Assembly: GCA_027315345.1 (NCBI GenBank)
Contig: DAHUYE010000044.1
Span: 1 to 64,000, forward strand
Reading direction: 5' to 3'
Source: Actinomycetota bacterium
Lineage (GTDB): Bacteria > Actinomycetota > Acidimicrobiia > Acidimicrobiales > JAJPHE01
Length of the DNA: 64,000 nt
Of this stretch, positions 29,466 to 32,899 are shown one piece after another (the stretch's first letter is position 1; each line of letters starts with the position of its first letter). Position numbers and translations under genes: made by a program. The notes beneath the pieces are model-generated. The model was not told the origin of the DNA. It saw nothing but the letters and a program-made list of their open reading frames with translations, and searched no databases.

Positions 29466-29630
29466 ATGCGCACAGTCACCTGGTTCACCATGAAGCCGAT
29501 GGGCCGACTCGGTGACGTGGCGCGCGCTCGCGGCTATGCCGCAGCTACGTCCAACCGGTCCGCCAACCACGGTTGTTTCATCGACACCACCGTGCGGCCG
29601 AGGGGCTCCTGTGGAGGTTCAACTGGCTAG
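29466..29630 (+). CDS. Leader ORF (uORF) upstream of whiB7
   Basis: A 54-codon ATG-initiated frame begins MRTVTWFTMKPMGRLGD and ends GSCGGSTG, wholly within the 350-bp gap before whiB7. An imperfect hairpin (CTGGC/GCCAG with outer GGTT/AACC, 29616-29640) spans its stop codon, and a strong terminator follows 30 bp later. In mycobacteria and Streptomyces the whiB7 uORF couples ribosome stalling to antitermination. The peptide is not expected to have its own function; coding status is inferred from position. Confidence 0.6.
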   Translation: MRTVTWFTMKPMGRLGDVARARGYAAATSNRSANHGCFIDTTVRPRGSCGGSTG

Positions 29631-29660
29631 AGCCAGAACCACCGCAGGAAGAGGCCCCAA

Positions 29661-29690
29661 GGCCGCCGGCACCAGCCGGCGGCCTTTTTG
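29661..29690 (+). terminator. Intrinsic terminator/attenuator upstream of whiB7
   Basis: GGCCGCCGG (29661-29669) pairs perfectly with CCGGCGGCC (29675-29683), 5-nt loop, followed by TTTTTG. It lies 47 bp before the whiB7 start and after a leader ORF, so it would stop transcription unless antitermination occurs. Confidence 0.85.
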
Positions 29691-29736
29691 TTTGCCCGGG
29701 GGGGCAGCCCCCAAACCACCGAAAGGGGACGGCGAC

Positions 29737-30054
29737 ATGATCGCCCAGCAGGACCTGGAAACAAGAATCGAAGAATGGGACCCACCGGTCGACTGGACCG
29801 CGGCCGCCTGCCGGGCTGAGGGCGGCTCCCTCGTGGACCTGTTCTTCTCCGAGCAGCTGGACGACATCGCCCGGGCCAAGTCGATCTGCACCGCCTGCCC
29901 GGTGGTGGAGCCCTGCCTGGCCGGGGCCCGGGAGCGGCGCGAGCCCTGGGGAGTCTGGGGCGGCCAGCTGTTCATGAACGGGGTGATCCTTCCCTACAAG
30001 CGGAAGCGGGGAAGGCCCCCCAAGCACCTGTCGGTGGCCGCTCTGGGCGCCTGA
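29737..30054 (+). CDS. whiB7: WhiB family Fe-S transcription factor, WhiB7-type
   Basis: A 105-residue WhiB protein. The four [4Fe-4S] ligands are C25, C51, C54 and C60 (CTACPVVEPC), followed by the sigma-contact GVWGG turn at 72-76 and an AT-hook-like KRKRGRPPK tail (90-96). The AT-hook distinguishes WhiB7, which activates antibiotic-resistance genes with SigA. The upstream uORF, terminator and A/T-rich promoter element support that identity. WhiB2-like proteins can have basic tails, so subfamily is likely, not certain. Confidence 0.8.
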   Translation: MIAQQDLETRIEEWDPPVDWTAAACRAEGGSLVDLFFSEQLDDIARAKSICTACPVVEPCLAGARERREPWGVWGGQLFMNGVILPYKRKRGRPPKHLSVAALGA

Positions 30055-31395: not shown

Positions 31396-31469
31396 GGGCG
31401 TTTAGCTCAGTTGGTTAGAGCAGCTGGCTTACAACCAGCAGGTCGGGGGTTCGAGTCCCTCAACGCCCA
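31396..31469 (+). tRNA. tRNA-Val (anticodon TAC)
   Basis: Acceptor GGGCGTT/AACGCCC, anticodon TAC at 31430-31432 in a GCTGGCTTACAACCAGC arm, T-arm GGGGG-TTCGAGT-CCCTC, discriminator A. CCA is not encoded. Decodes GUA/GUG. Confidence 0.95.
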
Positions 31470-31588
31470 CTGAAGCAGGAACCTGGTCGGAGCATCCTCG
31501 CGACCTTGGACTCTCGGTTGGAGGCGATGGCGAAAAGGAGAGCACGCACCGCCTCCTCGTCGGGTCCGTCGCCCCTATTGGCCACGCC

Positions 31589-32152
31589 CTAGATTGCCCG
31601 ACCTGACGGTTCGGACGACGCCAGCGGAGAATACTCGAGCTTTCCTTCCCGACTCGCCTGTTCGACCATCAAGGCGACCGCCTCGGGATCAGCTGGTGGG
31701 TCGAGAACGAGATGGCGACCGTCGATCTGAGCGTTGAGGAACTCTGCGTGCATCTTCCGTGTTGCCGCCTCGTCCCTGAAGCCGTGACCGCGACGGGAGG
31801 CAACCCGGCGGACGCACTCTTCGACATCCGGCAGCAGGATGACGTAATCGAGGCCGTCCAGGTTGGTCTCCCTGAAGAAGGTCGAAAGTAGCCATGGTCC
31901 GACCACACCGTCATACACGGTGAAGTACCCACCCGAGGCGTAGTGGCCGGCGGCCGATGCTGCCGCCCGGGTGACGACCTCGTTCTGCCTCCCGGACTCG
32001 GTCAACCAGGGTGCGATCGCTCCGCCTGCCAAGAAGCCGAAGAAGGCGTCTCCGCTGACGAGCGCGCTGAGCTCCGCCCGTTCTGCCAGCACCCCCGCCA
32101 CCGTCGATTTGCCAGCCCCGGGTGGTCCACTGATCACCAGTAGTCGGCCCAC
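31589..32152 (-). CDS. P-loop kinase-like ATPase (AAA_33 family)
   Basis: From the GTG at 32152 (187 aa) the protein opens with LLVISGPPGAGKST, a Walker A loop at the N terminus as in small nucleoside/antibiotic kinases, then an Asp-containing strand VILLPDVEECVRRV and an Arg-rich lid region RRGHGFRDE. The frame extends upstream of 32152 into the GGDEF gene on the other strand, but that part is not kinase-like. Substrate unknown; a related kinase lies at 34189. Confidence 0.7.
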   Translation of the reverse strand: MGRLLVISGPPGAGKSTVAGVLAERAELSALVSGDAFFGFLAGGAIAPWLTESGRQNEVVTRAAASAAGHYASGGYFTVYDGVVGPWLLSTFFRETNLDGLDYVILLPDVEECVRRVASRRGHGFRDEAATRKMHAEFLNAQIDGRHLVLDPPADPEAVALMVEQASREGKLEYSPLASSEPSGRAI

Positions 32153-32240
32153 GCAGGGGATTATGGCGGCTTGGCGGGAGCGGGGGCCTGACGTCGGGCG
32201 GCAGGGGGCCGATATTGCCGGCCTGTTCTGTCCTGCCGGA

Positions 32241-32269
32241 TTGACATACGGTATGAGCCAACGTATATA
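32241..32269 (+). promoter_or_regulatory. Near-consensus leaderless promoter of the GGDEF-RHH gene
   Basis: TTGACA (32241-32246), exactly 17 bp, then TATATA (32264-32269), the best sigma-70 promoter seen in the window. Initiation 7 nt downstream falls on the GTG start at 32276, so the mRNA is probably leaderless. A perfect CATAC-G-GTATG palindrome (32245-32255) overlaps the -35 end and spacer, a natural operator position. Confidence 0.8.
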
Positions 32270-32275
32270 TATGTT

Positions 32276-32899
32276 GTGCCTATTACGACGGTCCGTAAGA
32301 TCACGGAGCGATCCCGGTTCCTGGAGGAGCTCGAGGCGAAGTTGCACCATGGCAACGCGCCACTGGCCCTGGCCCTGACCGACCTCGACGACTTCGCACA
32401 GATCAATGACGAGTACGGTCACGAGACCGGTGACGCCGTGCTGGCCGCCTGGGATCGGGTACTAGCCACCAACGCTCCAAAAGGGGCCTCGGTGGTCAGG
32501 TTGGGTGGAGATGAGTTTGTGCTGGTCCTCCCGGGGATATCGGCCGAGAACGCCGTGGTACTCCTGGAGGAGCTCCGCGGACATTTCTCGACCATGGCCG
32601 TCGAGGGGGTGGTCGCTGCGCTCACTGCCTCCGCCGGGATAGCCGCCAATCCGCCGCACGGAACCACGGCCGAGGACCTGTGGAGGGCCTCCGGCGAGGC
32701 GCTGATGCGGGCCAAGCGGGACGGACGCGACCGCATTGCTCTCTACGTCGAAGAGAAGATGATTCTCAAGAGCAACTACTACAGCAAGGCCAATCTAGAG
32801 CGGCTGGCCAAACTGTCGGCGGCTACCGATCGGACCGAGGCCAGCCTGCTACGCGAAGCCCTGGATGACGCCTTGTACAAGTACCGAGACGCCTTATAG
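32276..32899 (+). CDS. Diguanylate cyclase (GGDEF) fused to a C-terminal ribbon-helix-helix domain
   Basis: The 207-residue protein starts almost directly with a GGDEF domain: TDLDDFAQINDEYGHETGD (metal and substrate residues D36/D39, N44) and RLGGDEF at residues 75-81, so c-di-GMP synthesis from GTP is plausible. The inhibitory RxxD I-site is absent (PKGA at 68-71). Residues ~164-204 (KSNYYSKANLERLAKLSAATD then RTEASLLREALDDALYKY) match the strand-helix-helix pattern of CopG/Arc DNA-binding domains. There is no sensor domain or membrane segment. A DNA-binding cyclase, possibly autoregulating through the CATAC-GTATG palindrome, is my inference. GTG start fixed by the promoter. Confidence 0.82.
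   Translation: MPITTVRKITERSRFLEELEAKLHHGNAPLALALTDLDDFAQINDEYGHETGDAVLAAWDRVLATNAPKGASVVRLGGDEFVLVLPGISAENAVVLLEELRGHFSTMAVEGVVAALTASAGIAANPPHGTTAEDLWRASGEALMRAKRDGRDRIALYVEEKMILKSNYYSKANLERLAKLSAATDRTEASLLREALDDALYKYRDAL

Follow-up and report, generated by a model that had tools for sequence, protein, structure and literature searches.

Here we show by computational analysis that the DNA under study (a stretch of 64,000 nucleotides, hereafter the window) encodes a 207-residue protein in which a GGDEF domain is fused to a small C-terminal tail, most likely a ribbon-helix-helix (RHH) domain, and that the fusion, the presumed DNA-reading strand of the tail and a predicted operator at the gene's own promoter are all conserved in related genomes. 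We propose that this protein is a stand-alone diguanylate cyclase that represses its own gene: its RHH tail would bind the AT-rich palindrome on the -10 element of its own leaderless promoter, a reading to which we assign a probability of about 0.7. The features of the window that bear on this proposal are as follows.

32241..32246, plus strand: -35 element TTGACA (sequence; TTGAC conserved in orthologues)
32245..32255, no strand: imperfect palindrome CATACGGTATG, a possible weak second operator site (sequence; not conserved in orthologues)
32260..32275, no strand: predicted operator AACGTATATATATGTT, over the -10 element and abutting the start codon (conservation, leave-one-out matrix)
32264..32269, plus strand: -10 element TATATA, separated from the -35 element by a 17-bp spacer (sequence)
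32276..32899, plus strand: GGDEF-RHH fusion gene, GTG start, 207 aa, predicted leaderless (ORF, Pfam, alignment, AlphaFold model)
32276..32746, plus strand: GGDEF domain, residues 1-157 (Pfam PF00990, alignment, Foldseek)
32747..32896, plus strand: linker (VEEKM) and predicted RHH tail, residues 158-207 (alignments, AlphaFold, Foldseek, VIA-align)

A GGDEF domain with a conserved C-terminal tail

The N-terminal part of the protein matches the GGDEF profile (Pfam PF00990) over residues 9-153 with E=1.8e-29 and 103 bits, against a cut-off of 23.8, and its best Foldseek match is 3ign (E=1.3e-14). In the alignment, the window protein retains D36, N44, D53, GGDEF at 77-81 and K147; the roles of D36, N44, D53, GG[DE]EF and K147 in metal binding, guanine binding and catalysis are presumably those known from PleD. 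With the metal, guanine and catalytic residues all kept, the domain looks active, as an earlier reading made from the sequence alone had claimed, and we infer that the window protein is catalytically competent. The same reading had found no RxxD inhibitory site, and this is borne out: P68 and A71 stand where R and D would be expected.

The short linker VEEKM joins this domain to a tail of about 45 residues with an RTEASLLREAL-like sequence. The tail matches the Antitox_RHH, RHH_3, RHH_1 and RelB-like profiles (Pfam/NCBIfam), all below the curated cut-offs (21.4 against 27.2 for Antitox_RHH, 12.8 against 20.5 for RHH_1 and, with the tail of L082, 19.8 against 21.6 for RHH_3). Of the strand-helix-helix arrangement expected for residues 164-204, the two helices are modelled with confidence by AlphaFold (171-184 and 188-202, the right lengths for RHH), whereas the strand, expected at 161-167 or about 162-169 (KSNYY, 165-169), is not resolved in the monomer model, where it would have no partner strand. 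Foldseek searches with the tail model returned the RHH domains of PutA (best) and CopG first, followed mainly by further RHH proteins (CopASO, MatP, Arc, CdbA, ParD and AmrZ), with homeodomains lower; these matches are weak (E of about 1 and above, query TM-scores mostly 0.5-0.66). VIA-align of the tail to the same RHH proteins gave Z of about 4-5.4, and a search of the tail profile against PDB sequences gave no match. Because the profile scores are sub-threshold and the Foldseek E-values are near 1, the fold assignment is an agreement of several weak results; taken together with the autoregulatory operator described below, these signals make RHH much the most likely fold of the tail. The register of the strand is uncertain because K165 and N167 occupy RHH-strand positions that are usually hydrophobic.

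Searches of related genomes uncovered ten further fusions within the phylum, nine complete and one (L084) ended by a contig edge. L082, L083, L084, L112, L118, L119, L123 and L124 belong to the same order as the window, L113 to another order of the class, and L125 to another class of the phylum. Fusions were present in 9 of the 397 sampled genomes of the order and in 2 of the 396 sampled across the phylum (both counts include the window's own genome; apart from broad scans in which ordinary GGDEF proteins predominate, the sampling was confined to one phylum). When the ten complete fusion domains were placed in a tree with 30 further GGDEF domains, they grouped as a single clade (support 96/91): the fusion has a single origin. 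Together with the PF00990 match and the tail model, these relatives confirm the 207-residue GGDEF-RHH fusion noticed in the sequence-only reading, more strongly than that reading could know.

Other candidates were rejected as members of the family. Among 80 GGDEF relatives found in a contig scan (the best 30-45% identical), the ten with matches reaching furthest into the tail, beyond about residue 180, and L103 carry EAL-type continuations in place of an RHH tail. L114 encodes instead a stand-alone RHH_1 protein (L114:1492-2135) beside a PIN gene; its sequence includes RTEASIIREA and matches the tail at 44% identity across 39 residues. A VapBC-like pair of this type (RHH_1 plus PIN-domain gene) may be the kind of source from which such tails derive.

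Within the fusion family, the GGDEF domain evolves faster than the tail, with a mean pairwise identity of 0.51 versus 0.70. The strand motif KSNYY is invariant in the alignment (11 of 11 members), and comparison of the tails of the close pair L112 and L118 yields dN 0 and dS 0.18. From residue 150 onward there are no indels, except for three C-terminal residues missing in two members, and the spacing from the last GGDEF strand to the RHH helices is constant across the family.

The catalytic domain is less uniform. D36, N44, D53, GGDE[FY] and K147 are kept in seven of the ten complete members, among them the window protein, and the remaining three show altered GGDEF residues in the alignment: AGDAY replaces GGDEF in L125, L113 has SGDEW plus a change of D53 to T, and L083 has D53 changed to N, both of the latter changes at the guanine-recognition position. 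We take position 53 to be the base-specificity position, which differs in the cGAMP-making Hypr enzymes. The three variants hint at a change of nucleotide specificity or a loss of catalysis inside the family. Because 3 of 10 members are altered in this way, cyclase activity may not be the common function of the family; their variation points either to a change of product or to a role in sensing that has outlived catalysis, and nucleotide sensing may outweigh synthesis in importance.

These observations lend an appreciable, if tentative, probability to an alternative in which the protein is a nucleotide-sensing autorepressor, with the GGDEF domain serving chiefly as a GTP or c-di-GMP sensor of RHH binding and synthesis being weak or vestigial. 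Such a role would fit the retention of tail and operator even in the AGDAY-bearing L125, the substitutions of the base-recognition residue D53 in L083 and L113, and the faster change of the GGDEF domain, and c-di-GMP-binding domains, active or inactive, are known on DNA-binding proteins (PdeL, PMC5052742). However, pure sensors would have no need to keep the active-site residues that are intact in the window protein and six further complete proteins of the family, and AGDEF and SGDEF enzymes can be active, so that a degenerate first position alone does not abolish activity (PMC3974145).

A conserved palindrome at the fusion promoter

The sequence-only reading had described a TTGACA-17-TATATA promoter with initiation on the GTG. 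Both elements are present, and their spacing predicts +1 at 32276, the G of the GTG start codon, upstream of which inspection of the sequence revealed no apparent ribosome-binding site. That the gene is leaderless, as had also been proposed, gains support from the orthologues, in most of which the start codon lies 0 nt from the operator. A promoter scan that demands T at the sixth -10 position misses this promoter for that very reason.

In all 10 genes with sequenced upstream DNA, a RACATATATATGTY-like palindrome precedes the coding sequence, and in 9 of the 10 its position is over the -10 element, with 0-6 bases between its end and the start codon. It abuts the start codon in seven of them (the window, L112, L118, L113, L119, L123 and L124) and ends six bases before it in L082 and L083; the distant L125 has two copies at its promoter, further from a start codon that is preceded by a Shine-Dalgarno-like sequence. 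TTGAC lies shortly upstream of the palindrome in all nine class-level members that were read, window included, and L125 has TTTACA at -35. When each locus was scored with a leave-one-out matrix built from the other members, the site at the fusion's own promoter was the best 14-mer in every locus, and that of the window ranked first among about 128,000 14-mers. As the fusion is kept in other genomes and the operator is the best site of each locus, the combination of the two is more than chance.

The operator had previously been placed over the -35 element and spacer. The palindrome there, CATACGGTATG, does exist, but its lack of conservation rules it out as the main operator, and the conserved palindrome lies on the -10 element (32260-32275). 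At most, CATACGGTATG would be a weak second site, a role made possible by the second operator-like copies found upstream of the main site in L083 and L113 (about 15 bp) and in L125 (about 16 bp). The earlier interpretation is thus supported in part: the conserved predicted operator at the gene's own promoter favours the autoregulation that it proposed, at a different position.

We next consider how private this site is to the fusion. A strict pattern, RYRTATATAYRY, was searched in all eleven carrier genomes and found in 8 of the 11, in seven of these exclusively at the fusion's own promoter. Strict matches were lacking in G012, G044 and G426; the first and last of these have an own-promoter site with one mismatch, and in G044 the promoter falls beyond the contig end. 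Strict operator matches are therefore nearly absent elsewhere in the carrier genomes. More sites appear in these genomes when two mismatches are allowed, so other targets are possible. The single extra strict match in the window's genome (G000 contig C10:19973-19984; L128:1501-1512) lies at the start of a TacA1-type RHH antitoxin gene, which also seems to be leaderless and has a GNAT gene behind it, a possible case of cross-recognition or convergence of RHH operators. As a control, a search of 395 genomes of the class for the promoter-plus-palindrome pattern detected it in 3 of 3 carriers versus 12 of 392 non-carriers. None of the 12 non-carrier matches precedes a GGDEF gene; the genes that follow them are unrelated, among them those for an ABC ATPase, a solute-binding protein and a GntR regulator, and the matches look like background.

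The protein could also be an ordinary cyclase that is dimerised by its tail without binding DNA, the palindrome then reflecting no more than an AT-rich promoter or serving a different regulator. Any promoter is expected to have an AT-rich -10 element, the RHH matches are under the family cut-offs, and DNA binding by the tail is a prediction. This explanation nevertheless seems quite improbable to us, given that the presumed reading strand KSNYY is invariant and that the palindrome is longer than any -10 element, ranks first in each locus, is nearly private to fusion promoters and is kept in a different class.

Variable neighbours and no partner gene

The gene neighbours of the fusion vary from genome to genome, and no conserved or toxin-like neighbour was found at the window locus or at those of the orthologues. 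As the neighbours differ, the fusion is a stand-alone gene, and as none of them is conserved, its own gene is the only common target predicted. In the window, a divergent AAA_33-type kinase-like gene (31589-32422, minus-strand frame, start codon uncertain) shares the intergenic region; its regulation by the fusion protein is possible, but this neighbour is not conserved. A tRNA-Val (TAC) gene lies at 31396-31470, some 0.8 kb ahead of the fusion, and neither an integrase nor any other mark of an element was seen nearby. A WhiB-family transcription factor is encoded at 29512-30054, by which the genome would belong to the Actinomycetota or close to them. The tail had no match in viral contigs or in plasmid and phage records, and so, as far as seen, the fusion is not a gene of mobile elements.

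It is against this background that a toxin-antitoxin-like or defence module, in which an antitoxin-type RHH autoregulator is joined to a GGDEF domain that serves as the toxin or produces a signal, has to be judged. Antitoxin RHH profiles are those closest to the tail, the nearest stand-alone relative found adjoins a PIN gene (L114), and the one strict operator match that the window's genome has outside the fusion promoter falls at the TacA-GNAT promoter. Yet a partner gene is absent beside every copy, the searches of mobile-element sequences came back empty, and no defence family was recognised beyond a weak similarity to the Cas10 palm, which is a trait of GGDEF domains generally. We regard such a module as very improbable.

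A proposed autorepression circuit and its known relatives

In the self-repressing cyclase that we favour, the RHH tail would dimerise the protein and bind the predicted operator on the -10 element of its own promoter. Because a dimer sitting on the -10 and +1 positions would keep RNA polymerase off, autorepression is the natural reading, with the protein probably acting as an autogenous repressor that switches off its own transcription and the circuit holding the enzyme at a low set level. Synthesis of c-di-GMP requires two GGDEF domains together. Given the constant length of the tail linker, RHH dimerisation would bring these domains into a pair, a task for which other cyclases have receiver or coiled-coil dimerisers, and dimers might pair in turn on tandem half-sites, again bringing two GGDEF domains together.

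GTP or c-di-GMP in the GGDEF site would be the likeliest signal to loosen or tighten repression, and such nucleotide gating of DNA binding is speculative. A direct coupling, in which the nucleotide state (GTP bound, c-di-GMP made) sets promoter occupancy or operator DNA assembles the active cyclase dimer as an allosteric activator, we consider less likely than not. As a rule, a second-messenger enzyme is under the control of sensor domains attached to it, and its effects pass through separate receptors. In the fusion, 207 residues apparently serve as sensor, enzyme and transcription factor at once, and there is in essence a single conserved target, the promoter of the gene itself. If nucleotide state and DNA binding were coupled, the fusion would be a minimal, testable case of cyclic-dinucleotide synthesis and transcription linked by direct feedback. 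It would also represent a c-di-GMP circuit in a lineage for which the papers searched describe nothing similar.

The sequence-only reading knew of no cyclase with an RHH output. Searches of open-access full texts turned up no fusion of a diguanylate cyclase to RHH, and within that scope this part of the claim stands; DNA-binding c-di-GMP enzymes as such have a precedent in PdeL. Canonical cyclases (PleD, WspR, DosC) share the GGDEF fold and active-site residues with the fusion, which, unlike them, is without a sensor or receiver domain and an RxxD I-site and carries the RHH tail instead. RHH antitoxins of the VapB, RelB and TacA type resemble it in the RTEASLLREAL-like tail and in the AT-rich palindromic operator at their own start, whereas the fusion lacks a toxin partner and has its RHH C-terminal to an enzyme domain. 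CdbA of Myxococcus xanthus is a DNA-binding RHH protein that binds c-di-GMP (PMC7156744), a tie to the nucleotide that it would have in common with the fusion; its structure (6sbw) is among the tail matches with Z 4.6. CdbA residues S10, Y12 and R30 fall on S166, Y168 and R186 of the fusion (offset 156), and K8 and R27 are unmatched (L164 and A183). CdbA differs from the fusion in lacking a GGDEF domain, in using the RHH itself to bind c-di-GMP and in being nucleoid-associated.

The closest parallels in logic are PutA and PdeL. The trifunctional proline utilization A protein is an RHH-enzyme autorepressor of its own operon (PMC5293562), so that in both PutA and the fusion one chain joins an enzyme to an RHH domain, an autogenous repressor in PutA and probably also here, and the PutA RHH is the best Foldseek match of the tail. 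Of the PutA-type features, the architecture and a predicted operator are present and homologous enzyme domains are absent; the enzymes are unrelated, the RHH is N-terminal in PutA and C-terminal in the fusion, and PutA controls the put regulon, whereas the fusion's own promoter is the only common site found. The fusion would work like PutA, yet it is not a PutA. The trigger phosphodiesterase PdeL (YahA) of E. coli combines HTH and EAL domains, binds a palindrome at its own promoter and activates its own gene (PMC5052742). It shares with the fusion a c-di-GMP-metabolising domain, a DNA-binding domain and a palindrome in its own promoter, but pairs EAL with a LuxR-type HTH and activates itself from a far-upstream site. 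The fusion pairs GGDEF with RHH and has its predicted operator on the -10 element, and from this position repression would be expected; were synthesis and DNA binding coupled, it would be the mirror image of PdeL. The finding is a new combination of known principles, most likely a dedicated autorepressor-cyclase in which PutA-type and PdeL-type logic are combined.
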